Under the pieces are notes generated by a model. It did not search any database and was not told the origin of the DNA. It worked only from the letters and a program-made list of their open reading frames with translations. Positions 32,476-51,125 of a DNA stretch of 64,000 nt are shown here, in pieces (the first letter of the stretch is position 1; each line of letters begins with the position of its first letter). The DNA is taken from assembly GCA_007693505.1 (NCBI GenBank), contig REDL01000064.1, positions 1 to 64,000 of the forward strand, read 5' to 3'. The stretch is from Desulfovibrionales bacterium. GTDB lineage: Bacteria; Desulfobacterota; Desulfovibrionia; Desulfovibrionales; Desulfonatronaceae. Position numbers and translations under genes: made by a program.

Positions 32476-32550
32476 TAAACAACTTTGCCGTGAAAATCTT
32501 CATGAACACTATACCTGTGAGCCATTGAACCGTTGAATAATCTTCCAGCC

Positions 32551-33702
32551 ATGTCTGAGCAGCGTGTAACAAAATTTGCCATTCCGGAGATCATCTTCGG
32601 CCAGAGCAGCATCCGCTACCTGGCGCAGTGTTCGAGGCGACTGGGTGCGAAACGCGCACTTGTTGTCACGGACCAAGGTTTGATTGATTCCGGCTGGGCC
32701 GACTTTGTGATGGATATCCTGCGGGATGATGGCTTGGACTTCCTGCTCTTCGACAAGGTCAACTCCAACCCCCGGGACTACCAGGTCCATGAAGGAGCGG
32801 ACCTGTATGTTCGGGAAAAGGCTGACGTGATCATCGCTCTTGGCGGCGGAAGTCCCATGGATTCTGCCAAAGGCATTGGGACCATTGTGGGCAACGGGGG
32901 GCGGATTGCCGACTACGAGGGGGCGAATCGGATCATGCGGCCCCTGCCGCCGATGATCTTTATCCCCACCAATGCCGGCAGTGGTTCGGACATTTCTCAG
33001 TTCTGCATCATTACGGATGTGGAGCGCCAGGTGAAAATGTCCATCATCAGCCGTTCCCTGGTCCCCAACGTTTCGATCATCGACCCTGATTTGTTGATGA
33101 CCAAGGACGATCAGTTGGTCGTTTCCTCGGCCATTGACGCGTTGGCCCACGCCATTGAGTCTTTTGTTTCTCCACTGGCTTCGCCGTTCACAGAGAATCA
33201 GGCCTTGAAGGCCATTGAACTGATTGCCCAGAATCTTCAGCCGGCCATTCTGAATCGCACGCCGCAGGTCATGGAGCAGTTGTCCATCGCCAGCACGGCC
33301 GCAGGCATGTCCTTCAGCAACGCCGGCCTGGGAATCGGCCACGCCTTGGCCCACTCCCTGGGAGGTATTTTCGACACGCTTCACGGTCTGGTTCACCCGA
33401 TCGTGCTCCCCGTGGTCATGCGCTATAACTTGCCGGTCTGCCGGGAGAAGATGTGTACCATTGGCAGGATCATCCAGGGGTCGTCCGGAGAGTGTTCGTT
33501 GGATCATGGTGAAGAGGGCATCATTCGGCTGGAGGAACTTTTCGCCAAGCTTGAGGTTCCCAACAGGATGCGGGATATCGTACCCGATAGCGGCAAGCTG
33601 GAGCAGATTTGTCGCATGGCGGTCCACGATGCCTGCATGTTGACCAATCCGCGTAAGGCCGATTGGGAGGATTTGCTGCATATCTGCCAGGAGGCATGGT
33701 GA
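32551..33702 (+). CDS. Iron-containing alcohol dehydrogenase (first copy)
   Basis: This 383-residue member of the type III alcohol dehydrogenases oxidises alcohols with NAD and an active-site iron. GGGSPMDSAKGIG is the nucleotide-binding motif; AGSGSDISQFCIIT and the iron ligands in SSAIDALAHAIESFV, GIGHALAHSLGG and LHGLVHPIVLP follow. It differs clearly from the second copy at 36573, which suggests a different substrate or a sensory/regulatory link. The stop overlaps the kinase start by 1 bp. Confidence 0.93.
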   Translation: MSEQRVTKFAIPEIIFGQSSIRYLAQCSRRLGAKRALVVTDQGLIDSGWADFVMDILRDDGLDFLLFDKVNSNPRDYQVHEGADLYVREKADVIIALGGGSPMDSAKGIGTIVGNGGRIADYEGANRIMRPLPPMIFIPTNAGSGSDISQFCIITDVERQVKMSIISRSLVPNVSIIDPDLLMTKDDQLVVSSAIDALAHAIESFVSPLASPFTENQALKAIELIAQNLQPAILNRTPQVMEQLSIASTAAGMSFSNAGLGIGHALAHSLGGIFDTLHGLVHPIVLPVVMRYNLPVCREKMCTIGRIIQGSSGECSLDHGEEGIIRLEELFAKLEVPNRMRDIVPDSGKLEQICRMAVHDACMLTNPRKADWEDLLHICQEAW

Positions 33703-34934
33703 TGCAACAACCTACCGGGCTGCAGGACCTGATCGGCATTGAGCACAGCAAGCTTGGTTTTTTTCAGGAATTGCGTCAGAAAGTCGAGGAACTGAAGGAT
33801 TCCAACAAGCGTTCTGAGGAGCAACGACGGGAGATAGCCGCCATTTTGGATGGGATCACGGACGTGATGATGGTTTTGTCCGAAAACTTGCGGATCATTT
33901 CTGTAAACCATGTCTTTCGTCAGTTTTTTGATGATCCGCATCCCGAAGGCAAGTTCTGCTATGAATTGTTCCGCCACCAGGCTCATCCCTGTCCGGAATG
34001 CCCGGCGTTTCGTTCTCTGGCCACGAATTCCGTCTGCCGCGATACGGCCATATTCAAGCTCAAAGGCCGAAATCTGCAATTTGAAATGGTTGCCTCGCCG
34101 CTGAAGAACCCCGAGTGGCCGGAGCACCGGGTACTGATCTTCAAGCGCGACGTGACCTTGGAAAAGGAGTATCAGGCAAAATACTATCAGGTTGAAAAAA
34201 TGGCCACCATGGGCATGCTGGCCGCGGGCGTTGCCCATGAGGTGAACAATCCCATGGCGGCGATCCATGGCTTTGCCGAGGGATTGCAGCGGCGACTGCC
34301 GCGGATTGAAGGCACGGTGGATCCGGAGTTGGTCCAGGATTTTCGCGACTACACGGACATCATTCTCAAGGAGTGCCATCGCTGCCAGAAGATCATCCAG
34401 ACCCTGCTGACCTTCAGCCGCCCGGTTTCCGCACCCTTCTCCCCCCTGGCAATGAATCAGGTCGTCACGGATACCCTTCGCCTGGTGGACCACCACCTGC
34501 GCAAGCGAGATGGATTGAAAATCCAACTTCATCTGGCTGACGAACTGCCGCTGATCTATGGTGACGAATCCCAGCTCAAGCAGGTGATCTTGAACCTGCT
34601 GGTCAACGCCCTGGATGCCCTTCAGGGGGATGGCCAGATTACAATTACGACCAGTTTTGTGGAAGGCGAAGAAGTTTGTTTGTGCATCGAGGATACGGGA
34701 TGCGGTATTCCGCCTGAAAATCTGGACAAAATGTTTGAGCCGTTTTTTACCACCAAACCGGTGGGCAAGGGTATCGGAATCGGCCTCGCCTCCTGCTACA
34801 CCATTGTCCAGGAACATGGTGGTGAAATTTCCGTCGCCAGCGAGATGGATAACGGGTCACGGTTTACTGTCTGTTTACCGCTGAATGTCAAACAAGGATC
34901 CCGTGAGCGAGCATTACTCAGTTCTCGTCGTTGA
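33702..34934 (+). CDS. PAS-domain sensor histidine kinase
   Basis: This 410-residue soluble kinase has an N-terminal coiled coil (about 20-48), a PAS domain (about 45-150), a HisKA domain with H179 in [16 protein letters not shown], and an HATPase domain with [22 protein letters not shown] and [13 protein letters not shown]. The PAS domain holds a cysteine set (C86, C97, C100, C112; [16 protein letters not shown]) often seen in deltaproteobacterial PAS kinases, possibly a metal or redox site. GGAGG seven bases upstream fixes ATG 33702. It overlaps the regulator by 50 bp, marking a cognate pair. Confidence 0.93.
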
Positions 34935-36255
34935 CGACGAGGACTCCATCCTCAAGCTGTTCCAAAAGGAATTCTCCCGACCGGAACGGACCATTCATGT
35001 CGCTCCGACTGCGGCCCAGGCGCGACAATTGGCCCGCCGCAATCTCTACGATGTCGTGATTCTGGATATTCGTCTTCCGGATGCGGATGGGCTGGACCTC
35101 TTCGCGGAATTCAAGGAGCGGCTTCAGGATGTGGAGATCATCCTGATCACCGGCCATGGCAATATTGACAGCGCGGTTCAGGCAATGAAACTTGGCGCCT
35201 ACGACTACATCACCAAGCCCTTCAACCTGGACAAGCTGGAACTGGTCATCGAGAGAGCTTGGCAGCGGGCCTGCATGCAACGAGAAAACAGGGGCTACCG
35301 AATATCCTCTGTCAGTCAGCGGGCGCACCGCATGGTGGGCAATTCGGAAAGCATCAAACAGGTTCGATATCTGGCTGGCCGCGCCGCGCCCACAGAGGTT
35401 CCGGTCCTGCTGACCGGAGAAAGCGGAGTGGGCAAGGACGTAGCAGCCCAGGTGATCCATTCGGGCAGCAAGCGAGCGGATAAGCCGTTCATCATCAAGA
35501 ATTGCGCCGCTCTGGTCAAGGAACTGGCTCGCAGCGAACTGTTCGGACACATCAAGGGAGCCTTTACCGGGGCCACGGAATCTCGTGAGGGATTGATGGC
35601 TTTTGCCCACAAGGGAACCTTGTTTCTGGATGAAATCGGTGAACTGCCCATAGAGGTTCAGGCTTCGCTGCTGCGCGTGCTGGAAAACAAGACCTATCGC
35701 CGCGTGGGAGAAAAGGAGGAGCGGACCATCGACATCCGCTTTATCTTCGCTACCAGTCGAAATTTGTTCACTGAGGTGGAGGAAGGCCGCTTCCAGGAAG
35801 CTCTGTTGCACCGGATCAACGTCTTCAATATCCATACGCCGCCACTACGCGAGCGCAAGGAAGACGTCCCGCTTCTCGTGGAGCACTTCCTGGCCAGCTT
35901 GTCCACCACCCCAACCCGCTACCGGGTCACGGACAGGGCCATGCATTGTCTGCTGAACTACTCCTGGCCCGGCAACGTTCGCGAACTGCGCAATGTCCTG
36001 GAACGGAGCATGATTCTGGCCGACAAAGGCATTATTTCGGACCGAGCTCTGCCGCGGGAATTGGTGGACCAATCCCTGCCGACCCCAAGCAGTGGTTTCA
36101 GTGATGATGGAATGTTCTCTTTGCGCCTCATGGAGCGGGAGCATATTTCACGGGTGCTGAACCACTTCGAAGGCAATCGCCAGCAGGCCGCGAAGGCCAT
36201 GGGTATCGGTCGCAAAACCCTCTATCGGAAAATGAAAGAGTTTGAACTGCAGTAA
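34885..36255 (+). CDS. Sigma-54-dependent response regulator (NtrC family)
   Basis: This 456-residue protein has a receiver domain with phosphoacceptor D61 (VVILDIRLPDADG) and an AAA+ domain with Walker A GESGVGKD (about 171), the sigma-54 contact loop GAFTGA (about 224) and Walker B LFLDEIGEL. A Fis-type helix-turn-helix lies at the C-terminus (NRQQAAKAMGIGRKTLYRKM). Start ATG 34885 or GTG 34903, which has AAGGA close by. It ends 216 bp before a sigma-54 promoter for the second alcohol dehydrogenase, its probable target. Confidence 0.95.
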   Translation: MSNKDPVSEHYSVLVVDDEDSILKLFQKEFSRPERTIHVAPTAAQARQLARRNLYDVVILDIRLPDADGLDLFAEFKERLQDVEIILITGHGNIDSAVQAMKLGAYDYITKPFNLDKLELVIERAWQRACMQRENRGYRISSVSQRAHRMVGNSESIKQVRYLAGRAAPTEVPVLLTGESGVGKDVAAQVIHSGSKRADKPFIIKNCAALVKELARSELFGHIKGAFTGATESREGLMAFAHKGTLFLDEIGELPIEVQASLLRVLENKTYRRVGEKEERTIDIRFIFATSRNLFTEVEEGRFQEALLHRINVFNIHTPPLRERKEDVPLLVEHFLASLSTTPTRYRVTDRAMHCLLNYSWPGNVRELRNVLERSMILADKGIISDRALPRELVDQSLPTPSSGFSDDGMFSLRLMEREHISRVLNHFEGNRQQAAKAMGIGRKTLYRKMKEFELQ

Positions 36256-36470
36256 TCAATCGGTGGCTGTATCCTTTTGACCCAGCACAAGGCTTTTGTT
36301 GTATCAAGATGACACGGCTTTGTAACATTTTGAAATATCAGCATCTTCCCTGTTTTTCCCGCAGGGCTTTTCAGTGGCTGCGGTCTAGTGTCTCGAAAAT
36401 GTCCCATCTGCCAGGATGCGCTTGGAGTGGCTTGGGGGGAATATGCTTGATTTTTCAAGCTTTTCTTGCA

Positions 36471-36486
36471 TGGCCCGGAAGTTGCT
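36471..36486 (+). promoter_or_regulatory. Sigma-54 promoter of the alcohol dehydrogenase/Hdr-Flx region
   Basis: TGGCCCGGAAGTTGCT fits the -24/-12 consensus (TGGC at 36471, GC at 36484-36485, correct spacing). Transcription should start near 36497, leaving a ~75-base leader before adh. GCTTGATTTTTCAAGC (36445-36460) lies just upstream; TGTATCAAGATGACA (36300-36314) is a weak candidate activator site. The rest of 36256-36470 shows no gene. Confidence 0.85.
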
Positions 36487-36572
36487 CTTAGGGACTGCAA
36501 CAGTCGCTGCAGCGGAAACCGAGTGAGTGTTGTATTGTATTTATCCCTTTAACCGAAAGGATGGTTAGCATT

Positions 36573-37754
36573 ATGGCCGTACGTGAACAAGTTAATGGAT
36601 TTTTCATTCCCAGCGTTACCCTGATCGGCATCGGAGCCCACAAGGAAATTCCCGCCAAGATTCAGGCTCTGGGCGGCTCCAAGCCGTTGCTGGTCACCGA
36701 CAAGGGCATCACCGGCATCGGGATGACCGACCAGATCGTGAAGCTGCTCAAGGATGCCAAGATGGATTGCGTGGTCTACGACGAAACCATCCCTAACCCA
36801 ACGGATGCCAACGTGCATGCTGGTGTCGATGTATACCAGAAGAACAAGTGCGACAGCCTGATCACCCTGGGCGGCGGAAGCTCCCATGACTGCGGCAAGG
36901 GCATCGGCCTGGTCATTGCCAATGGTGGGAAGATTCACGACTTCGAAGGTGTGGACAAGTCCACTAAACCCATGCCTCCCTACGTTGCCGTGAACACCAC
37001 CGCCGGTACGGCCTCCGAGATGACCCGTTTTTGCATCATCACCGACCTGTCCCGGAAGGTGAAGATGGCGATCGTTGACTGGCGCGTCACTCCCGGCGTT
37101 GCCGTGGACGATCCGTTGCTGATGATGGGCATGCCTCCGGCGCTGACCGCCGCCACCGGTATGGACGCCCTGACACATGCCGTGGAAGCCTACGTTTCCA
37201 CCATCGCCACCCCGATGACCGATGCCTGCGCTGAAAAAGCCATCGAGCTGATTTTCAAGTACCTGCGTCCCGCCGTGGCCAACGGTCAGGACATCGATGC
37301 CCGTGAAGGCATGTGCTATGCCCAGTATCTGGCCGGCATGGCCTTCAACAACGCCAGCCTGGGTCACGTGCATGCCATGGCTCACCAGCTGGGCGGCTTC
37401 TACGACCTGCCCCACGGCGAGTGCAACGCCATCCTGTTGCCCCACGTGGAGAAGTTCAACCTGATTGCCAAGGTGGAGCGTTTTGCCAAGATGGCCCAGC
37501 TGATGGGCGAGAACATCGACGGCCTGAGCCCGCGCGCTGCCGCTGAAAAGGCCCTGGACGCCATTAAGCAGCTCTCCGCTGATGTCGGCATCCCGTCCGG
37601 CCTTGTTGAGCTGGGCAAGCGCTATGGCAAGGACGTGAAGAAGGAAGACATTGCGACCATGACCGGCAATGCCCAGAAGGACGCGTGCGGATTCACCAAC
37701 CCCCGCTGCCCCAAGGATGCCGACGTGCAGGCCATTTACGAGGCCGCGCTGTAG
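36573..37754 (+). CDS. adh: Iron-containing alcohol dehydrogenase (main copy)
   Basis: This 393-residue type III enzyme oxidises ethanol and similar alcohols with NAD. Signatures: LGGGSSHDCGKGIGLV, NTTAGTASEMTRFCIIT, and iron ligands in GMDALTHAVEAYVST, HVHAMAHQLGGFYDLPHGECNAILLP. Codon use is strongly biased to a preferred set, as in highly expressed genes. It has a sigma-54 promoter upstream and its own terminator downstream. The following genes encode the NADH-using Flx-Hdr complex, the same order known from Desulfovibrio vulgaris. ATG 36561 is an alternative start. Confidence 0.96.
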   Translation: MAVREQVNGFFIPSVTLIGIGAHKEIPAKIQALGGSKPLLVTDKGITGIGMTDQIVKLLKDAKMDCVVYDETIPNPTDANVHAGVDVYQKNKCDSLITLGGGSSHDCGKGIGLVIANGGKIHDFEGVDKSTKPMPPYVAVNTTAGTASEMTRFCIITDLSRKVKMAIVDWRVTPGVAVDDPLLMMGMPPALTAATGMDALTHAVEAYVSTIATPMTDACAEKAIELIFKYLRPAVANGQDIDAREGMCYAQYLAGMAFNNASLGHVHAMAHQLGGFYDLPHGECNAILLPHVEKFNLIAKVERFAKMAQLMGENIDGLSPRAAAEKALDAIKQLSADVGIPSGLVELGKRYGKDVKKEDIATMTGNAQKDACGFTNPRCPKDADVQAIYEAAL

Positions 37755-37773
37755 CATCTGAATATCGTTATTA

Positions 37774-37812
37774 TCAGAAAGGCCGGAAAGATCCGGCCTT
37801 TCTGATTTTTTA
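37774..37812 (+). terminator. Intrinsic terminator after adh
   Basis: TCAGAAAGGCCGG (37774-37786) and CCGGCCTTTCTGA (37793-37805) pair perfectly around a 6-base loop and are followed by TTTTTT (37807-37812). It separates a strong adh transcript from the hdr-flx operon; 37813-38007 must hold the hdrC promoter, of which TTGCCT/TATCTC near 37893-37920 is only a weak candidate. Confidence 0.93.
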
Positions 37813-38007
37813 CGCTTCACTCACATCAGGTGTTGAGGAGGTGCGGACTTTGGCTGCATGGTGTTCGAAGTTTTGTCGACGCAATAGGCTTGCCTTTTCC
37901 GTCACGATTCCTATCTCTGCATTCCGGTCATCCGTAAAGTTTTCACCCCCTCAACCCCTAAGCTGATTGTTGGCACCCCAACCCTCCCGCCAAGGAGCAG
38001 AAGACAC

Positions 38008-38565
38008 ATGGAAGTTGTTGATATCCACGCCTCGTGCGATCACGAATTCATCGCCAAGGTTGAAGAAGAGAGTGAGCAGAAGGTTCGCCTCTGCTACCAA
38101 TGCGGCAACTGTACCGCCGGCTGCCCTTATACTTTTGTCTATGATATCCCGGTCAGCCAAGTGATGCGTCTAGTGCAGGCCGGGCAGAAGGAACGGTTGT
38201 TGTCCTGCAAGTCGATCTGGCTGTGCGCCACCTGCGAGTCGTGTACCACACGCTGCCCCAATGAAATCGACGTTGCCCGGATCATGGACGTGCTGCGCCA
38301 CATGGCTCGTCGCGAAGGCTATGTGGCGGAGAAGAACGTGAAAAAGTTCTGGGATACATTTCTGGACTCCGTGGAAAAACACGGCAGGGTTTTTGAGATG
38401 GGGTTGTTGGCGACATATGTTGCCAAAACCGGTCGGTTCTGGACGGACATGGAACTGGGCCCCAAAATTCTTCCCAAGGGCAAACTCTCCTTCAAACCCC
38501 ACGAAATCCAGGGCAAGGATAAGGTTGCTGAAATCTTCAAACGCTTCAGGGAGATGCAGCAATGA
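38008..38565 (+). CDS. hdrC: Heterodisulfide reductase-like subunit HdrC
   Basis: This 185-residue ferredoxin-like subunit has two 4Fe-4S motifs: C29-C32-C35-C39 (CYQCGNCTAGCP) and C73-C76-C79-C83 (CATCESCTTRCP). It relays electrons from HdrA to the catalytic HdrB. AAGGAGC precedes the start and the stop overlaps hdrB by 4 bp. In this cluster HdrABC joins FlxABCD in a soluble NADH-linked bifurcating complex. Confidence 0.94.
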   Translation: MEVVDIHASCDHEFIAKVEEESEQKVRLCYQCGNCTAGCPYTFVYDIPVSQVMRLVQAGQKERLLSCKSIWLCATCESCTTRCPNEIDVARIMDVLRHMARREGYVAEKNVKKFWDTFLDSVEKHGRVFEMGLLATYVAKTGRFWTDMELGPKILPKGKLSFKPHEIQGKDKVAEIFKRFREMQQ

Positions 38566-39506
38566 GTACATATGCCTACTACCCTGGGTGTTCCGGACTC
38601 GGCACCTCCCAGGAGTATGAGTCCTCCACCAGGGCGGTCTGCCGGGCCTTGGGTGTGAAATTGGTGGATATTCCGGACTGGAGCTGCTGTGGCTCCACTC
38701 CCGCGCACACCGTCGATCACCTCCTGTCTTCAGCCTTGGCTGCCAGAAATCTGGCTCTTGCCGAAGACCTGGACGCAGCCGCGGTGATTACGCCCTGCCC
38801 AAGCTGTCTGACCAATCTTAAAGTCGCCGTACATCGCATGAGTGATCGGGAGTTTCGGATGCAGGTGAACAAACTGCTGGACAAACCGGTGGATCGATCC
38901 ACCCCGGTGAAATCCGTTCTGCAGGTGCTTGCCGAGGACGTCGGACCTGAGACCGTGGCCGAAATGCTGCCCCATAAGCCGCTGGCCGGTCTGAAGGTTG
39001 CTCCCTACTACGGCTGTATCATGAACCGCCCTCCGGAGGTGATGCAGTTCGACGACCATGAAAACCCCATGGCCATGGACAATTTGATGGCCGCACTCGG
39101 CGCGGAGGTTCTGCCCTTTCCGCTGAAGGTCGAGTGTTGCGGGGCCTCTTACGGGGTTGCCCGGAAGGACATCGTGGCCAAATTATCTGGTAAACTACTG
39201 CAGGCCGCTGAAGACCTCGGGGCGCATGCCGTGGTGACGGCCTGTCCGCTCTGTCAGATGAATCTGGACCTGCGCCAGGGACAGGCATCGTCCGCCGCTG
39301 GTCACAAGTTTCAGCTGCCTGTTTTCTACTACACGCAATTGATCGGCCTGGCACTTGGTGTGCCGCAAAGCGAGTTGGGACTGTCCAAACTGTGCGTCAA
39401 CCCGAGACTGGCTCTGGATGCCATGCATGCGGTCCAGGCCGAGAAGCGGGAACAGGAAGCCAAGAAAGAGGCCGCCAAGCAAATCCACAAGGCCAAGGCC
39501 GCCTAG
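38562..39506 (+). CDS. hdrB: Heterodisulfide reductase-like subunit HdrB
   Basis: This 314-residue protein has two CCG domains: DWSCCGSTPAHTVD with CPSCLTNL (about 45-90), and YYGCIMNRP with VECCGASYG and TACPLCQMNL (about 150-230). These cysteine sets ligate the two non-cubane 4Fe-4S clusters where the disulfide is reduced. The C-terminus is a lysine/alanine-rich tail (about 290-314). In sulfate reducers the partner is thought to be DsrC or another thiol protein rather than CoM-CoB. Confidence 0.94.
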   Translation: MSTYAYYPGCSGLGTSQEYESSTRAVCRALGVKLVDIPDWSCCGSTPAHTVDHLLSSALAARNLALAEDLDAAAVITPCPSCLTNLKVAVHRMSDREFRMQVNKLLDKPVDRSTPVKSVLQVLAEDVGPETVAEMLPHKPLAGLKVAPYYGCIMNRPPEVMQFDDHENPMAMDNLMAALGAEVLPFPLKVECCGASYGVARKDIVAKLSGKLLQAAEDLGAHAVVTACPLCQMNLDLRQGQASSAAGHKFQLPVFYYTQLIGLALGVPQSELGLSKLCVNPRLALDAMHAVQAEKREQEAKKEAAKQIHKAKAA

Positions 39507-39546
39507 AGCACCTTCGCGATCATACGGCGAAGCCGGAGGAACGTTC

Positions 39547-41505
39547 ATGAAGATTGGAGTATTCGTCTGCCACTGCGGCAGCAATATCGGTGGGACGGTG
39601 GACGCGGCCAGGGTCGCGGAGGCCTCCCGCGAATTTCCTGACGTGGTCTTTACGTCGGACACCATGTATGCCTGTTCCGAACCGGGACAGGACGGGATCA
39701 TTCAGGCCATCAAGGACAACCAGCTGGACGGCGTGGTCGTTTCCTCCTGCACCCCGCGGATGCACGAGCCCACGTTTCGACGCACCGTGGAACGGGCCGG
39801 GCTGAACCGGTTCATGTTCGAGATGGCCAACATCCGGGAACACGTCTCCTGGATCGGCAAGGACAAGGAGGCGAACACCAATAAGGCCATCGAACTGACC
39901 GGCATTGCCGTGGAAAAGCTGCGTCGCGACCAACCCTTGTTTGCCAAACAGTTCGATATCAACAAGCGGGTTCTGGTCATCGGCGGCGGTGTGGCCGGTA
40001 TTCAGGCCGCTCTGGACTGTGCCGACGGGGACCGGGAAGTGGTCCTGGTGGAGCGGGAATCCACCATCGGTGGGAAGATGGCCAAGCTGGACAAGACCTT
40101 CCCCACCGTGGACTGCAGCAGCTGCATACTCGGGCCGAAAATGGTCGACGTGGCCCAGCATCCGAAGATTCAGTTGTACGCCATGGCCGAGGTGGAGGAG
40201 ATCGGCGGCTATGTGGGCAACTACGAAGTGAAAATCCGTCGCAAGGCACCCTACGTGAACTGGGACCTTTGTACCGGTTGCGGACTGTGCATGGAGAAGT
40301 GTCCCAGCAAAAAGTCCACGGATCGCTTCAATGAACAGGTGGGCTCGACCACGGCCATCAATATCCCATTTCCCCAGGCCATTCCAAAGAAAGCCGTGAT
40401 TGACCCAAAATTCTGCATCAAGCTGACCAAAGGCAAGTGTGGGATTTGCGCCAAGATCTGTCCGACAAAGGCCATTGTTTTCGACCAGCGGGAAGAAATC
40501 ATTTCCGAGAGCGTCGGCGCCATTGTCGCGGCCACTGGTTACGATCTCTTCGATATCAGCAAGTATGGAGAATACGGTGGCGGGCGTCTGCCCGACGTGA
40601 TCACCGGTCTGCAGTACGAGCGGTTGCTCTCGGCCTCAGGCCCCACTGGAGGGCATGTCAAGCGGCCCTCGGACGGCAAGGAGCCGAAAACCATCGTCTT
40701 TGTTCAATGCGTCGGCTCTCGGGACAAGAGTGTTGACCGGCCGTACTGTTCCGGTTTCTGCTGCATGTACACGGCCAAGCAGGCCATCTTGACCAAGGAC
40801 CATATTCCGGATTCCTCTTCCTATGTCTTTTACATGGACATCCGTTCTCCAGGAAAGATGTACGATGAGTTCACCCGCCGGGCCATGGAAGAATACGGGA
40901 CACAATACGTTCGCGGGCGGGTCTCGATGATTTATCCACAAGGCGACAAGCTGATGGTCCGCGGTGCGGACACCCTGATGGGTACCCAGGTGGAGGTGGA
41001 GGCGGACCTCGTGGTTCTGGCCGCCGGGGCCGAAGCCGCTGTGGGCGCTCCGCAACTTGCCGAGAAATTGCGTATTTCTTACGATAAATACGGCTTTTTC
41101 ATGGAGAGCCATCCCAAACTGCGACCCGTGGAGACCAACACCGCCGGGGTGTACCTGGCCGGTTCATGTCAGGGACCCAAGGACATTCCTGCGTCCGTTG
41201 CGCAAGGTAGTGCCGCCGCGGCCAAGGTGTTGGCTCTGTTCGCCAAGGACAAGCTGGAAAACGATCCGATGATTTCCCTGGTGGACATGAAACGGTGCGT
41301 GGGCTGCGGCAAATGCGTTCGGGTCTGCCCCTTTGGTGCGATCAAGGAAATCGACGTTCGGGGAGAACCCAAGGCCGAGGTAATCGAGACGGTTTGCCAA
41401 GGTTGCGGACTGTGTACAGCAACGTGTCCGCAGGGGGCGATCCAACTTTCCCATTTTACCGATAATCAGATTCTCGCCGAGGTGAACGCATTATGCCAGC
41501 TTTAG
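39547..41505 (+). CDS. hdrA: Heterodisulfide reductase-like subunit HdrA
   Basis: This 652-residue flavoprotein is the presumed bifurcation site. The N-terminal domain (1-135) has GVFVCHCG; the FAD-binding loop VIGGGVAGIQAAL is at 145-157. Four ferredoxin-type motifs are seen: CTGCGLCMEKCP (from 242), CGICAKICPTKA (from 298), CVGCGKCVRVCP (about 583) and CQGCGLCTATCP (about 618). GGAGG precedes ATG 39547; upstream frame reads through hdrB sequence. The end overlaps flxD by 13 bp. FAD splits NADH-derived electrons between ferredoxin and HdrB. Confidence 0.95.
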   Translation: MKIGVFVCHCGSNIGGTVDAARVAEASREFPDVVFTSDTMYACSEPGQDGIIQAIKDNQLDGVVVSSCTPRMHEPTFRRTVERAGLNRFMFEMANIREHVSWIGKDKEANTNKAIELTGIAVEKLRRDQPLFAKQFDINKRVLVIGGGVAGIQAALDCADGDREVVLVERESTIGGKMAKLDKTFPTVDCSSCILGPKMVDVAQHPKIQLYAMAEVEEIGGYVGNYEVKIRRKAPYVNWDLCTGCGLCMEKCPSKKSTDRFNEQVGSTTAINIPFPQAIPKKAVIDPKFCIKLTKGKCGICAKICPTKAIVFDQREEIISESVGAIVAATGYDLFDISKYGEYGGGRLPDVITGLQYERLLSASGPTGGHVKRPSDGKEPKTIVFVQCVGSRDKSVDRPYCSGFCCMYTAKQAILTKDHIPDSSSYVFYMDIRSPGKMYDEFTRRAMEEYGTQYVRGRVSMIYPQGDKLMVRGADTLMGTQVEVEADLVVLAAGAEAAVGAPQLAEKLRISYDKYGFFMESHPKLRPVETNTAGVYLAGSCQGPKDIPASVAQGSAAAAKVLALFAKDKLENDPMISLVDMKRCVGCGKCVRVCPFGAIKEIDVRGEPKAEVIETVCQGCGLCTATCPQGAIQLSHFTDNQILAEVNALCQL

Positions 41506-41951
41506 CCGGAAAGGAACTTCGAATCGTTGGCTTTCTCTGTAACTGGTGCTCCTACGGTGGAGCGGATACGGCTGGAGTCGGTCGGTTTTCTCAGCCCACG
41601 GACCTGCGGATCATCCGCGTCCCATGCTCCGGACGAATCAATCCCCTGTTCGTCGCCAAGACCCTGCTATCCGGTGCCGATGGGGTGCTTGTTTCCGGAT
41701 GCCACCCCCGGGACTGTCACTATGCCGAAGGCAATTTCTATGCCCGCCGCCGATTGGAAGTCTTCAAGCGGTTTCTGCCGACCATGGGCATAGACCCCGA
41801 CCGTTTTGAGTATACCTGGGTTTCCGCGTCCGAGGGACAACGGTGGCAGAAAGTGGTGACCACCTTTACGGAGCAGATTCACAAGCTTGGCCCGGCTCCC
41901 CGATTCGGCTTTGCCCATGAGCAGAACCCGGCAACCGCGGCGGCGTGTTAA
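41493..41951 (+). CDS. flxD: FlxD (MvhD-like iron-sulfur protein)
   Basis: This 152-residue protein has the MvhD/FlpD pattern: VGFLCNWCSYGGADTAG at the N-terminus, VPCSGRI, and SGCHPRDCHYAEGNF, giving the cysteines for a 2Fe-2S cluster. It transfers electrons from the FlxABC oxidoreductase to HdrA. It overlaps hdrA at its start and is followed by flxC after 11 bp. Confidence 0.93.
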   Translation: MPALAGKELRIVGFLCNWCSYGGADTAGVGRFSQPTDLRIIRVPCSGRINPLFVAKTLLSGADGVLVSGCHPRDCHYAEGNFYARRRLEVFKRFLPTMGIDPDRFEYTWVSASEGQRWQKVVTTFTEQIHKLGPAPRFGFAHEQNPATAAAC

Positions 41952-41962
41952 GGAGTGCAACA

Positions 41963-42919
41963 GTGACAATTCTCACGCAACTCAAGGAACAGATCACGGC
42001 ACAGTTGCCGAAGCTGGATATGGTTATCGGCTGGGAGCAGGGCTACGACGCACTGCATGCCACGCCGTTGTTCATGCGTGCGGCGGAGGATGTGGAGCGG
42101 CTACAGATTGGGCCGCTGTCCGTCCATAACACGGCAACATACCTCACTGGTTTGCGAAACAAGAAGGTCGGACTCGTGGTCAAGGGCTGTGACAGCCGGG
42201 CCGTGGTTCAATTGCAGCAAGAGGGGTTGATCGACCGTGAAAATGTCGTGGTCTTCGGCTTTCCGTGTGATGGCGTGGCCGACCTGACCAAGGTGCGGCG
42301 GCTGATTGGCGATGTCGGACGGGTGGAAGAAGTTGAAACTACTCCCACGGAACTTCGCCTGCGGGTGGACGGCCGAGAAGAACAGGTGGCCATGTCCGAC
42401 GTGATGGCGGACAAGTGCCGGCGGTGTCAGTATCCCAATGCCCTGGTTCATGATCATTTCGCGGGCAAGCCCAGGGAGCCTCACGCTACGAGTGACGATT
42501 ATACCGATGTACAGGAATTCGAGTCGCAGTCCCTGGAGACTCGATTCGAACACTGGAAGTCGGAAATGAGCCGATGCATCCGCTGCTACGCCTGCCGCAA
42601 CGCCTGTCCCATGTGCGTATGCCGGGATCATTGTATTGCCCAGAGCCGGGATCCCCATTGGGTCACCCAGGACGACATGGTCCGGGAAAAATGGATGTTC
42701 CAGGTGATCCATGCCATGCACTTGGCCGGGCGCTGCGTGGAATGCGGCGAATGCCAACGAGCCTGCCCGGTGGATATTCCGATTCTGGCGCTGAAGCGCA
42801 AAATGAACAAGGAAATCAAGGAAGTCTTCAACTATGATGCCGGTGTTGACCCTCAGGCAATACCGCCATTGCTCTCCTTCCAGGTGGAAGAGGAGAACAT
42901 CAACGAGCGAGGTTGGTGA
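41963..42919 (+). CDS. flxC: FlxC iron-sulfur subunit
   Basis: This 318-residue protein has an FrhB-like N-terminal half (VVKGCDSRAVVQL, CDGVADL) and three cysteine clusters: CRRCQYP; CIRCYACRNACPMCVC; and CVECGECQRACPVD. AAGGAG lies seven bases before the GTG at 41963, which I take as the start. Its TGA is part of TGATG at the flxB start. It mediates electron flow between FlxA/FlxB and FlxD. Confidence 0.92.
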   Translation: MTILTQLKEQITAQLPKLDMVIGWEQGYDALHATPLFMRAAEDVERLQIGPLSVHNTATYLTGLRNKKVGLVVKGCDSRAVVQLQQEGLIDRENVVVFGFPCDGVADLTKVRRLIGDVGRVEEVETTPTELRLRVDGREEQVAMSDVMADKCRRCQYPNALVHDHFAGKPREPHATSDDYTDVQEFESQSLETRFEHWKSEMSRCIRCYACRNACPMCVCRDHCIAQSRDPHWVTQDDMVREKWMFQVIHAMHLAGRCVECGECQRACPVDIPILALKRKMNKEIKEVFNYDAGVDPQAIPPLLSFQVEEENINERGW

Positions 42920-43989
42920 TGGCCGAGGCCAAATACATATCAAACGACAAGCTGACGGCCTGGCTGGACGAATTGGCCGGGAAGATGCGTGTAATTGCCC
43001 CGACACGCCAAGGTGACGCGGTGGTTTTCGCTCCCTATGCTTCGGGTCAAAGCGTGGAGTTGGCGCAGGAAGCCACGGCTCCGCCAAAAAGTGTTGTTTT
43101 CCCGGCCAGCGAGGATCTCCTGCGCTACGACTATCGCAAGAATCCGGAAAATCTGGGCCAGGTTGACGTGGAACTGCTCCCGACCATCTCACCGGAGCCA
43201 ACTCTGGTTTTTGGTTCCCGCCCTTGCGGGGTCCGGGGGTTTTTGATCTTCGACCGCGTCTATGACGGGGCAACCTACAAGGATCCCTATTATCTTGCCC
43301 GCCGGGAAGCGACCCTGTTTGCCACCATCGCCTGCGGACAGGCGGAGAATGCCTGTTTTTGCCATAGCGTCGGTTCCGCGCCGGGCGATGCAACAGGGTC
43401 GGATTTGTTGTTGACCCCGATTGCCGACGGTTTTGTTGTGGAGGCCGTCAGTGACAAAGGGGCGCAATGCTTGGAGAGCTCATTGTTGGAAGCTGCCGGT
43501 GGCAAGGCCGACGAGGCTAAAGCCTTTCGAGAAAAAGCGCTCCAGGAAATGGGTGAACCGCAGGATTTTGGCCCGGCTCAGCAGAAGCTTCTGGAACTCT
43601 TCGACGACATGGGGTTCTGGGAGGATGTCTCGGCCAAATGCATCAGTTGCGGGGCCTGCACCTATCTCTGCCCGACCTGTTACTGTTTCAATATAACCGA
43701 CGAAAATGCCGGATTGACCGGGCGCAGGGTTCGTTCTTGGGATAACTGCATGTCGTTCCAGTTTACCCTGGAAGCCAGCGGTCACAATCCCCGCCCGACC
43801 AAGGCGCATCGCCTGAAGAACCGGGTCGGTCACAAGTTCAGCTACTACCCGAATCTGCATGATGGGATTATCGCCTGTTGCGGTTGCGGCCGATGCATCA
43901 AAAGCTGCCCCGTGAGCGTGGATATTCGGGAAATCGTGACCAAGGCCATGGCTCATCAACCACCGGCTGTCGAGGAGGCCGCAAAATGA
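42919..43989 (+). CDS. flxB: FlxB iron-sulfur subunit
   Basis: This 356-residue protein resembles the beta subunit of sulfhydrogenases and anaerobic sulfite reductase A: GSRPCGVRGFLIFDRVY in the N-terminal half and two 4Fe-4S motifs in the C-terminal half (CISCGACTYLCPTCYCFN; CCGCGRCIKSCP). It passes electrons from the FAD of FlxA inward. The start is ATG 42919, coupled to flxC, and the end overlaps flxA by 4 bp. Confidence 0.93.
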   Translation: MAEAKYISNDKLTAWLDELAGKMRVIAPTRQGDAVVFAPYASGQSVELAQEATAPPKSVVFPASEDLLRYDYRKNPENLGQVDVELLPTISPEPTLVFGSRPCGVRGFLIFDRVYDGATYKDPYYLARREATLFATIACGQAENACFCHSVGSAPGDATGSDLLLTPIADGFVVEAVSDKGAQCLESSLLEAAGGKADEAKAFREKALQEMGEPQDFGPAQQKLLELFDDMGFWEDVSAKCISCGACTYLCPTCYCFNITDENAGLTGRRVRSWDNCMSFQFTLEASGHNPRPTKAHRLKNRVGHKFSYYPNLHDGIIACCGCGRCIKSCPVSVDIREIVTKAMAHQPPAVEEAAK

Positions 43990-44843
43990 CCGAGAACCCG
44001 AAACAGTCGCCCCTTGCCGCCAACCCTTACCTGCCGGAAATCGGCACGGTGGTGGAAACCATCCAGGAGACCCACAACATCAAGACCTTCCGGATTGTTC
44101 TGGGCAGTGAAGAACGGATGCAGAACTTTCACTACGAACCGGGTCAGGTCGGACAGCTTTCCGTGTTCGGCATTGGCGAATCCACCTTCGTGATCAACTC
44201 CCCGCCCACGCGCAAGGAATATCTCCAATTCAGCGTGATGCGCGCCGGCGAGGTGACCACCAAACTGCACTCCTTGTCCAAGGGCGATCGCATCGGCGTC
44301 CGCGCTCCTTTGGGCAACGCCTTTCCTTACGAGTCCATGAAGGGCAAGGACATCATTTTTATCGGGGGCGGGATCGGCATGGCCCCGTTGCGGACCTTGC
44401 TGTTGTTCATGCTGGACAACAGGAAGGATTACGGCAAGATCCGTCTTCTTTATGGCGCGCGTAGCCCCCAGGATATGGCCTTCAGTTATGAATTGCCGGA
44501 CTGGCTGGAGCGCAAGGACATGGAAACCGTGTTGACCATCGACCGAGAGGCCGAAGGCTGGGAACACAAAGTCGGGCTGATCCCCAATGTGCTCCTGGAC
44601 ATGGCGCCCAAGCCGCGCAAGGCTGTTGCCGTGACCTGTGGTCCACCGATCATGATCAAATTTACCCTTCAGGCTTTGAAGAAACTGGGCTTTAAGGACA
44701 ATCAGATCATCACCACCTTGGAAAAACGGATGAAGTGTGGTGTGGGCATTTGTGGACGCTGCAATATCGGGACAAAGTACGTCTGTGTGGACGGTCCGGT
44801 GTTTTCCTATGAACAACTTCGGGAACTTCCCAACGAATTATAG
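43986..44843 (+). CDS. flxA: FlxA NADH-oxidising flavoprotein subunit
   Basis: This 285-residue ferredoxin-reductase-type protein has an FAD-binding barrel (about 15-105, with RKEYLQFSVMRAGEVT) and an NAD-binding domain with FIGGGIGMAPLRTLL and YGARSPQDM. A C-terminal 2Fe-2S site lies in CGVGICGRCNIGTKYVC (about 256-272). It is the entry point for NADH, here plausibly made by the adjacent alcohol dehydrogenase. The upstream frame inside flxB is excluded by the ATGA overlap. Confidence 0.94.
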   Translation: MTENPKQSPLAANPYLPEIGTVVETIQETHNIKTFRIVLGSEERMQNFHYEPGQVGQLSVFGIGESTFVINSPPTRKEYLQFSVMRAGEVTTKLHSLSKGDRIGVRAPLGNAFPYESMKGKDIIFIGGGIGMAPLRTLLLFMLDNRKDYGKIRLLYGARSPQDMAFSYELPDWLERKDMETVLTIDREAEGWEHKVGLIPNVLLDMAPKPRKAVAVTCGPPIMIKFTLQALKKLGFKDNQIITTLEKRMKCGVGICGRCNIGTKYVCVDGPVFSYEQLRELPNEL

Positions 44844-45510: not shown

Positions 45511-47250
45511 ATGGACAAGATTTTACGTATTGACGTTGGAGCGCAGGACGGCCCCAAAGCTACCGTGGAGCCGGTTGGGGACTACGCGGGCATGGGGGGT
45601 CGGGCCATGACCACCATGGTTGTATTCAAAGAAGTTCCGCCGGATTGCCATCCCTTGGGACCGGAAAACAAGCTGGTCATCTCCCCCGGTCTGATGAGCG
45701 GATCGGCTGCTTCCTCTTCCGGTCGCCTGTCTGTGGGCTGCAAGAGCCCGCTTACGGGAACCATCAAGGAATCCAATGCCGGCGGTACCGCAGCCCAGGC
45801 TCTCGGACGTCTCGGCTATGCGGCGGTTATCCTGGAAGGCGAGCGTCAGGGCGACGATATGTACAAGGTGTTCATTGACGACCAGGGCGTGAAGATCGAG
45901 AAGGCCAATGACCTGAAGATGCTGCCCAACTACGACCTGATCGAAAAGCTGAAGCCCGTCTATGGCGAAAAAGTCTCGGTGATTTCCATTGGGACAGCAG
46001 GGGAAATGCGTTTTTCCAACTCCTCCATTGCCGTGACCGACCCGGAATTCCGGCCGACCCGACACTGCGGACGCGGTGGTGTTGGCGCGGTCATGGGCTC
46101 CAAGGGCATCAAATGCCTTGTCGTGGACGCTTCCAACGCCAAAATGCGTCAGCCGGTAAACCCCGAGGCCTTCAAGGAATCCAATCGCAAGTTCGTGGAA
46201 GGTCTGAAGCAGCACGCGGTGACCGGGCAGGGCCTGCCAACCTACGGTACCAACGTCCTGACCAACGTGCTCAACGAGGCCGGGGGGTATCCAACGTACA
46301 ACTTCCGGGAAGGACGTTACAAGCACCACCAGACACTTTCCGGCGAACTTCAGGCTGAGACCATGAAGAACCGGGAAGGCGGCCAGCCCACCCACGGCTG
46401 TCACCGCGGTTGTGCCATCCAATGTTCCGGCATCTGGACGGACAAGGACGGTAACTATATGACCAAGCAGCCGGAGTACGAGACTGTTTGGTCACACGGC
46501 GGCAACTGCGGTATCAGCGACCTGGATGCCGTGGCCAAGCTCGATTATCTGGACGACAACTACGGCCTGGACACCATTGAAATGGGCGTGACCATCGGCG
46601 TGGCCATGGAAGCCGGAGTGATCGAATTCGGCGATGCCGAAGGTGCCATCAATCTGGTTCACGAAGTGGGCAAGGGCACTCCACTGGGCCGCATCCTGGG
46701 TGCCGGCGCCGCAACGACAGCCCGCTGCTATGGTCTGGAACGCGCCCCGGTGGTCAAGGGTCAGGCCATGCCGGCATATGACCCCCGCTCGGTCAAGGGG
46801 ATCGGCGTGACCTATGCCACCTCCACCATGGGCGCCGACCACACCGCTGGATATGCCGTGGCCACGAACATCCTCAAGGTCGGCGGTGATGTCGATCCGC
46901 TGAAGGTCGAGGGCCAAGCTGAGTTGTCCCGGAATCTGCAGGTGGCCACAGCCGCACTGGACGCCACGGGCTTTTGCCTTTTCGTGGCCTTCGCCATTCT
47001 GGATCAGCCCGAAACCTTTAACGCCATGGTTGAGACCATCAACGGCATGTATGGTCTGAGCATGACCGGTGATGATGTGGTCGCCCTGGGTCAGAAGATT
47101 CTGAAGATGGAGCAGGAATTCAACAAGAAGGCCGGCTTCGGCCCGGAACATGACCGCCTGCCCCGCTACTTCTCCCGTGAGCCGCTGACCCCGCATAACG
47201 TGGTCTTCGACGTGCCCGGAGAAGAGTTGGACAAGGTCTACAACTTCTAA
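45511..47250 (+). CDS. aor: Aldehyde:ferredoxin oxidoreductase (tungsten enzyme)
   Basis: This 579-residue protein has the AOR N-terminal layout (PVGDYAGMGGRAMTT, GLMSGSAASSSGRL) for tungstopterin binding. The 4Fe-4S cysteines are in CHRGCAIQC (about 294-302), with a later cysteine in TGFCLFVAF. It oxidises aldehydes to acids with reduction of ferredoxin. Next to alcohol dehydrogenase and Flx-Hdr it completes ethanol to acetate oxidation. A strong AAGGAGG precedes the start, and codon use suggests high expression. Confidence 0.94.
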   Translation: MDKILRIDVGAQDGPKATVEPVGDYAGMGGRAMTTMVVFKEVPPDCHPLGPENKLVISPGLMSGSAASSSGRLSVGCKSPLTGTIKESNAGGTAAQALGRLGYAAVILEGERQGDDMYKVFIDDQGVKIEKANDLKMLPNYDLIEKLKPVYGEKVSVISIGTAGEMRFSNSSIAVTDPEFRPTRHCGRGGVGAVMGSKGIKCLVVDASNAKMRQPVNPEAFKESNRKFVEGLKQHAVTGQGLPTYGTNVLTNVLNEAGGYPTYNFREGRYKHHQTLSGELQAETMKNREGGQPTHGCHRGCAIQCSGIWTDKDGNYMTKQPEYETVWSHGGNCGISDLDAVAKLDYLDDNYGLDTIEMGVTIGVAMEAGVIEFGDAEGAINLVHEVGKGTPLGRILGAGAATTARCYGLERAPVVKGQAMPAYDPRSVKGIGVTYATSTMGADHTAGYAVATNILKVGGDVDPLKVEGQAELSRNLQVATAALDATGFCLFVAFAILDQPETFNAMVETINGMYGLSMTGDDVVALGQKILKMEQEFNKKAGFGPEHDRLPRYFSREPLTPHNVVFDVPGEELDKVYNF

Positions 47251-48296: not shown

Positions 48297-48761
48297 ATGG
48301 TCTTTCCAGTCAAGACGTTAGACTCTCAAGCTCGCCTTGCGCAGATGATTGATCGGCTCAAAAGTCGTGATTTTCGATTGACGCCGCAACGCATGGCCGT
48401 ACTCAGAATCCTGGCTTCCAGTGAAGGACACCCTTCCGTGGATCAGATCTATGAGCAGGTTCGCCGCGATTTTCCGACCACCAGCATTGCGACGGTGTAT
48501 AAAACCGTGGCTCTGCTCCGGGAGCTTGGCGAGATTTTGGAACTGGGTTTCCCGGATGGCAGTAATCGGTATGACGGGAACAAGCCGTTTCCCCATCCCC
48601 ATGTCATCTGCACGCAGTGCAAATCGATTCATGACCCAGAGGTGAATGGCCTGACGGACCTGACCAAAGAGGTCAGCGCGGAGACCGGCTTTCAAATCAC
48701 GACGCACCGAGTGGATTTCTTTGGCATATGCCGTGATTGCCAAAGGGTTGTGCCCAAATGA
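48297..48761 (+). CDS. perR: Fur family regulator, probable peroxide sensor PerR
   Basis: This 154-residue protein has a winged helix (RLTPQRMAVLRILASSEGHPSVDQIYEQV; TTSIATVYKTVALL) and a C-terminal metal domain with HPHVICTQC and GICRDC, the two CxxC pairs of a structural zinc site. PerR proteins sense peroxide by iron-catalysed histidine oxidation. The neighbouring catalase-peroxidase gene supports PerR over Fur or Zur; the sequence alone does not prove it. Confidence 0.85.
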   Translation: MVFPVKTLDSQARLAQMIDRLKSRDFRLTPQRMAVLRILASSEGHPSVDQIYEQVRRDFPTTSIATVYKTVALLRELGEILELGFPDGSNRYDGNKPFPHPHVICTQCKSIHDPEVNGLTDLTKEVSAETGFQITTHRVDFFGICRDCQRVVPK

Positions 48762-48771
48762 CGAGATAACT

Positions 48772-51125
<2,354 letters not shown>

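Follow-up and report, generated by a model that had tools for sequence, protein, structure and literature searches.

Conserved Sigma-54 Promoter before an Alcohol Dehydrogenase Gene of a Desulfovibrionales Bacterium, with a Candidate Tandem Palindromic Enhancer for the Adjacent Two-Component Regulator

Introduction

A sigma-54-type -24/-12 element lies between a response regulator gene and the alcohol dehydrogenase gene adh in a 64-kb stretch of Desulfovibrionales DNA (the window, by which we mean the whole stretch analyzed). A sequence-only reading of this DNA proposed that the element links a kinase/regulator pair to ethanol and Flx-Hdr metabolism. The locus raises the question of whether the element is a promoter, whether the neighboring regulator acts on it, whether its reach includes the hdr-flx genes behind adh, and what the kinase may sense.

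The same reading called for a comparison with D. vulgaris, and there a regulator-adh circuit has been published. In the accessible text of Rajeev 2011 (PMC3333781), the regulator DVU2394 of D. (Nitratidesulfovibrio) vulgaris Hildenborough was mapped by DAP-chip to the adh-hdr operon, in which adh is DVU2405, and its validated motif is given as a direct repeat confined to the D. vulgaris strains Hildenborough and Miyazaki. The sigma-54 regulome of 2015 (PMC4641369), as far as its accessible text goes, lists DVU2394 as the activator of DVU2405-DVU2399. The likeness to the window is that a sigma-54-type two-component regulator is assigned to an adh-hdr-flx operon, and that a second alcohol dehydrogenase (Adh2, DVU2396) has a neighboring locus number. 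By these sources the regulator-adh circuit itself is already reported in D. vulgaris. The present analysis adds the candidate tandem palindromic enhancer, the co-occurrence of regulator and site, the locked pairing of a second dehydrogenase (ADH2) with the kinase, and evidence that hdr-flx is set apart from adh; within the open-licence literature, supplements excluded, no title or abstract opening announces a palindromic tandem enhancer for a DVU2394-type regulator or a sensor role for DVU2396.

Results and Discussion

The Sigma-54 Promoter of adh

The features on which this part of the analysis draws are the following.

34885 to 36255, + strand: response regulator of the NtrC type (receiver, GAFTGA-bearing AAA+ domain, Fis HTH), assigned by Pfam and the GAFTGA motif
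36471 to 36486, + strand: sigma-54 -24/-12 promoter of adh, TGGCCCGGAAGTTGCT, with 11/12 consensus letters and a conserved position
36573 to 37754, + strand: adh, the main Fe-type alcohol dehydrogenase and target gene, assigned by Pfam, with a start codon conserved in relatives

The element had been called near-perfect, and the description holds: TGGCCCGGAAGTTGCT has GG and GC at the correct 10-base spacing and agrees with TGGCACG-N4-TTGCW in 11 of 12 letters, the sole mismatch being at the A of TGGCAC. The distances given for it were also accurate. It begins 216 bp after the regulator stop codon, which ends at 36255, and the conserved start codon of adh, the ATG at 36573, follows about 100 bp later; transcription of adh is expected to start at about 36497. 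The genome has one sigma-54 gene (a single PF00309 match above cut-off). Within the window, 36471-36486 is the one site with at least 11/12 letters of the full consensus, and shuffling of the 317-bp gap between regulator and adh produced a comparable site by chance in 15 of 5000 trials. A match to the short pattern, taken alone, is weak evidence for the element, as the window holds 4 one-mismatch matches to TGGCAC-N5-TTGC vs 6.44 expected. The bare consensus count, not being above chance, was replaced by the full consensus together with conservation.

For conservation, the adh protein was used as the query and 79 loci of other genomes were obtained from the best 80 matches listed; these are the closest relatives among the matches listed, mostly of Desulfovibrionales and Desulfobulbales type by record title. 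Of 81 adh copies among these matches, 68 have a site with 9/12 or more letters 50-170 bp upstream, vs 42 of 1620 dinucleotide shuffles, and 44 have one with 11/12 or more at that distance (0 of 1620 shuffles); the window itself was excluded, and L053 was dropped for having too little upstream DNA. Thirteen copies among the matches listed score below 9/12, although one of them, L036, shows an 11/12 match at a greater distance upstream. An alignment with four congeners (L111, L112, L113 and L115) and two loci from another genus of the same order (L116 and L117) shows the site preserved in all six; the contig of L114 ends before adh, which makes it uninformative in the alignment. Two other loci, L017 (8012-11179) and L028 (7943-11179), hold tandem adh duplicates, and every copy is preceded by a separate sigma-54 site and by enhancer-like sites.

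It is conservation in position and sequence across relatives that makes the element real, and this comparison confirms 36471-36486 as a widely conserved sigma-54 promoter. An accidental match, with a sigma-70 promoter in charge of adh instead, is extremely improbable. In its favor, the one-mismatch short-pattern matches in the window are no commoner than chance and D. vulgaris adh is described as highly expressed on many substrates; against it, the site is kept upstream of adh far beyond the shuffle level among the matches listed, and a search of 36200-38060 found no sigma-70 consensus promoter. A string at 36445-36460, GCTTGATTTTTCAAGC, has a weak terminator or dyad look and was set aside; the nearest relative, L111, preserves only part of it, and more distant loci do not preserve it.

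Candidate Enhancer Sites and the Adjacent Regulator

Two palindromic strings and a weaker enhancer-like one lie between the regulator gene and the promoter.

36269 to 36283, no strand assigned: candidate enhancer site 1, GTATCCTTTTGACCC, of the GGGTCA-N3-TGACCC type (matrix score 12.5; aligned in congeners)
36301 to 36315, no strand assigned: candidate enhancer site 2, GTATCAAGATGACAC, 32 bp from site 1 (matrix score 10.7; aligned in congeners)
36322 to 36336, no strand assigned: weak possible third enhancer-like site, GTAACATTTTGAAAT (10.4 bits, 8.3 bits in a second scoring; position not conserved)

A prior-free count of dyads in the 220 bp before the -24 element of 73 regions among the matches listed revealed one outstanding inverted repeat, GTCA-N3-TGAC, present in 30 of the 73 (shuffle maximum 3-5) and extending to GGGTCA-N3-TGACCC. 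A symmetric matrix places the sites at sharply fixed centers about 195 and about 164 bp before the -24 element, 31-32 bp apart. To keep the test free of circularity, the matrix was trained on 48 regions outside the Desulfovibrionales and scored on 32 of Desulfovibrionales type including the window, a grouping made by record title and similarity. All 32 test regions, one of them counted twice (L015 is L117), have a best site that outscores the 95th shuffle percentile; a site over threshold stands at the expected positions in 29 of them, and at both positions in 12. The two palindromes of the window are imperfect, each matching 9 of 12 core letters. Across the 3.94 Mb of its own genome the tandem arrangement occurs once and site 2 with the promoter once, with zero control matches; these patterns were fitted to the window, and their uniqueness shows specificity, not discovery.

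An enhancer of the NtrC type is sought about 100-200 bp upstream of its promoter, and the conserved pair would fit that distance. The earlier proposal that the regulator binds within 36256-36470 agrees with the candidate sites, which fall at 36269-36315. From these comparisons the GGGTCA-N3-TGACCC tandem pair is probably the enhancer of the adjacent regulator, conserved across the groups of sulfate reducers sampled. Many Desulfobulbales-type loci (e.g., L011, L036 and L084) have a third palindrome about 62 bp before the -24 element, which is absent from the window.

The tandem palindromes differ from the D. vulgaris motif, a direct repeat of vulgaris strains in the published account available to us. 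A direct-repeat search of the adh upstream regions yielded T-rich runs and small families at about the shuffle level, and the published repeat had no counterpart. In the Nitratidesulfovibrio-type loci the two sites, GTGGCATTTCGACCC and GTGGCCCATTCTGTCCC about 32 bp apart in the example of L064, are degenerate and alike as direct repeats too. This likeness in Nitratidesulfovibrio-type sites may be the origin of the published DVU2394 motif.

The regulator is of the GAFTGA type, as had been claimed: PF00072, PF00158 and PF02954 all score above their cut-offs, giving a receiver, a sigma-54 AAA+ domain and a Fis-type HTH, and the GAFTGA motif is present, in contrast to the GSFTGA given for DVU2394 in the accessible part of PMC4641369. 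As in a DVU2394-type system, homologues and synteny link the regulator to adh and to the ADH2-kinase pair. A close homologue is encoded in 8 of 8 genomes behind L063-L065, L068, L071, L074, L077 and L079. Three of the genomes (G046-G048, with L119, L121 and L122, behind the Solidesulfovibrio-type L074, L077 and L079) hold 2-3 close copies. We considered a diverged DNA-binding domain in the vulgaris-type regulator, where alignments stop at residues 395-407, and rejected it; the Fis HTH is intact behind a Gly-rich linker.

Regulator and site can also be compared where their genes are apart. Among the matches listed, 21 genomes have the promoter and/or enhancer before adh and no cassette beside it, and 19 of these encode a close homologue of the regulator at another place, vs 0 of 4 genomes in which the adh copies retrieved have no such site (L056, L058, L067 and L072; Fisher p 0.001 without L080). 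When L080, a second adh copy, is counted, the regulator is found in 1 of 5 site-less cases (Fisher p 0.005); the other adh copy of that genome, L053, is unreadable upstream, and L060 was left out of the count. The two genomes with the site and with the regulator below threshold, G068 and G071, are both MAGs, and their misses may be gaps in the genome sequence.

Because of the conservation, the enhancer pair, this co-occurrence and the DAP-chip result reported for D. vulgaris, it is very probable that the two-component regulator next to the promoter drives it, acting on adh. It is unlikely that the promoter instead answers to some other enhancer-binding protein encoded elsewhere, with the neighbor linked by position only. 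Such regulators are numerous in bacteria of this group according to PMC4641369, and the motif published for DVU2394 has another form than the palindrome; yet, among the matches listed, regulator and site go together even when their genes lie apart, and the published D. vulgaris DAP-chip data connect this regulator type with adh.

adh as the Conserved Target and the Reach toward hdr-flx

The features behind adh are the following.

37773 to 37806, + strand: intrinsic terminator after adh (15 pairs, T-tract, -26.8 kcal/mol)
38008 to 44843, + strand: hdrCBA-flxDCBA cluster, assigned by Pfam/NCBIfam; a search upstream gave neither a sigma-54 site nor an enhancer site for it
45511 to 47250, + strand: gene of the aldehyde:ferredoxin oxidoreductase family (weak partial model match, below cut-off)

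The terminator, described earlier as strong, has the properties to justify the word, and hairpins of -25 to -31 kcal/mol also follow adh in congeners and the sister genus (L111, L112, L115, L116 and L117). Hairpins of -12 kcal/mol or stronger occur in 15 of 34 adh-hdr gaps among the matches listed, in which L015 and L117 are the same, vs 6 of 102 shuffles; most of the other genera lack a strong hairpin there (19 of the 34 gaps). The hdr-flx cluster gives partial Hdr model matches below the NCBIfam cut-offs and Pfam matches above cut-off for CCG, FlpD, Fe-S and NAD-binding domains. Hdr and Flx subunit domains thus stand in one cluster, and the gene content behind adh is that of FlxABCD-HdrABC of sulfate reducers, with the difference that FlxC and FlxD are separate genes here while the accessible D. 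vulgaris table lists FlxCD as one (PMC10920352).

None of the 34 adh-hdr gaps among the matches listed contains an enhancer site of at least 12 bits or a sigma-54 site of at least 10/12. A sigma-54 promoter belonging to hdr itself was accordingly discarded, a 9/12 string in the gap of L115 being taken as chance. Where the DNA downstream of a cassette-linked adh is visible, 25 of 33 copies among the matches listed have no hdr behind them. The terminator, the site-free gaps and these hdr-less loci lead us to regard adh as the conserved target and hdr-flx as a frequent addition, probably at least partly insulated in this genus. The link to metabolism claimed in the sequence-only reading therefore stands for adh and is indirect for hdr-flx. 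Two further differences from the D. vulgaris circuit are that the cassette is directly upstream of adh and that a strong terminator lies behind it.

Read-through from the adh promoter into hdr-flx, which would make adh-hdr-flx one regulated operon as in D. vulgaris, is possible and on balance doubtful. It accords with the gene order, with the published target DVU2405-2397 (PMC3333781, in its accessible text), with the search before hdr, which found neither a sigma-54 site nor a sigma-70 consensus, and with the lack of a strong hairpin in the adh-hdr gap of most other genera among the matches listed. The T-tract terminator of this locus, its counterparts in congeners and the sister genus, and the absence of hdr behind most cassette-linked adh copies among the matches listed argue against it, and favor adh as a largely separate unit.

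Homologues of the 45511-47250 gene recur at 31 of 79 adh loci among the matches listed, also where hdr-flx is missing. Its product is probably the next step of ethanol oxidation, as the recurrence near adh fits a route from ethanol through acetaldehyde to acetate. Beside the ethanol cluster, at 48297-51125, a PerR-like regulator gene is followed by one for the catalase/peroxidase KatG, an oxidative stress pair.

The ADH2-Kinase-Regulator Cassette

Two genes precede the regulator and form a cassette with it.

32533 to 33702, + strand: ADH2, Fe-type alcohol dehydrogenase and candidate sensor partner (Pfam PF00465; kinase linkage)
33702 to 34934, + strand: PAS-type sensor histidine kinase (Pfam; start overlaps the ADH2 stop)

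The genes of ADH2, kinase and regulator overlap, and TGATG at 33700-33704 joins the ADH2 stop to the kinase start. ADH2 lies directly before the kinase at 47 of 50 testable loci, with 16 more too short; the 3 with a kinase lacking ADH2 in front are Solidesulfovibrio-type (L074, L077 and L079). The regulator follows the kinase at 62 of 62 testable loci, with 4 too short. Known duplicate loci were left out of these counts, in which a few genomes may recur (e.g., L099 and L118). The cassette is within 0.9 kb of adh in 37 of 83 copies among the matches listed, the window included, and in L024, L035, L043, L051 and L087 cassette and adh are on different strands, with the site between them.

The window and its congeners have no site before ADH2. 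Enhancer-like sites of at least 12 bits occur in 12 of 42 cassette upstream regions, 3 of which (L035, L043 and L051) are divergent and share the adh site, and autoregulation of the cassette was rejected. By a loose pattern, 44 of 60 kinase homologues carry a Cys-rich CYELF...PCPEC motif in the PAS domain (33702-34934 in the window), for which redox or metal sensing is possible.

A precedent for a dehydrogenase in such a position comes from Pseudomonas. In the accessible text of PMC12997753 and PMC7427536, ErcA is an Fe-ADH in an operon with the kinase ErcS and is presumed to generate its signal. ErcA-ErcS of P. aeruginosa and YiaY-PP_2683 of P. putida thus share with the window an Fe-type ADH beside a sensor kinase gene, the ADH being presumed, in these accounts, to make an activating signal for the kinase that controls the genes of ethanol oxidation. 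The Pseudomonas kinase is listed there as a membrane hybrid acting on AgmR/ErbR (LuxR type), whereas the window kinase is a PAS type without predicted membrane domain matches and its output is an NtrC-type sigma-54 activator. ADH2 resembles ErcA in its place directly before the kinase, and its best NCBIfam model is ErcA (NF041833; 407 bits, 120 above the next); it differs in falling below the model's cut-off of 550 bits. The adh product scores 416 with the ErcA model and higher with others. The Fe-ADH ligand motifs, whose residues we take to be the metal-binding ones, are kept in 43 of 43 ADH2 sequences.

These observations can be accommodated by two readings of ADH2. We tentatively propose, at slightly less than even chances, that ADH2, kinase and regulator form an old three-component alcohol/aldehyde sensor of sulfate reducers, in which an intact, low-abundance ADH2 would pass a redox/NADH signal to the cytosolic kinase and from there to the sigma-54 activator on the tandem palindromic enhancer of adh. 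That ADH2 is just another catabolic alcohol dehydrogenase, made from one transcript with kinase and regulator and without a sensing role, is quite conceivable if short of an even chance: its ligand motifs are intact throughout and it misses the ErcA cut-off, but its fixed place before the kinase, with overlapping genes, and the ErcA-ErcS precedent in the accessible literature speak for sensing. So does the D. vulgaris proteomics table in the accessible part of PMC10920352, where the row of Adh2 (DVU2396) starts with 2 vs 111 for Adh1 (DVU2405), a column that we read as a spectral or abundance count. So low a count suits a sensor better than a main enzyme, without proving a sensor.

Conclusions

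We consider it highly likely that a sigma-54 promoter of adh is served by the adjacent regulator on two palindromes, with the PAS kinase and ADH2 as input and adh mostly as its own unit. The regulator would bind, as a multimer, two GGGTCA-N3-TGACCC-type sites 31-32 bp apart, 155-200 bp before the -24 element, and so activate the promoter, after phosphorylation by the adjacent cytosolic kinase. ADH2, probably coupled in translation to the kinase through the gene overlap, would most likely supply or report a signal, either an alcohol/aldehyde or a redox one, in the way that has been proposed for Pseudomonas ErcA-ErcS. The strong terminator would leave adh largely as its own transcription unit in this genus, and transcription of hdr-flx would then depend on read-through or on a different promoter, not of the sigma-54 type. 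Promoter and enhancer-site conservation, gene linkage, regulator-site co-occurrence and the terminator are observed directly in the DNA; regulator binding in this organism, the phosphorelay, the signal and the role of ADH2 we infer. Control of adh does not look like a simple ethanol switch, as D. vulgaris adh also ranks with the most strongly expressed genes when the substrates are lactate/sulfate (PMC10920352; Rajeev 2011).

Ethanol oxidation by sulfate reducers is relevant to sediments, syntrophy and corrosion, and mutations in DVU2394 recur when D. vulgaris is evolved in the laboratory, both in syntrophy and during adaptation to salt, according to PMC8319347. If the three-component reading is true, an ErcAS-like sensing principle would here be wired to a different output. 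The predicted operator pair, conserved beyond the vulgaris strains, together with a candidate dehydrogenase sensor, makes the signal of the kinase directly testable.
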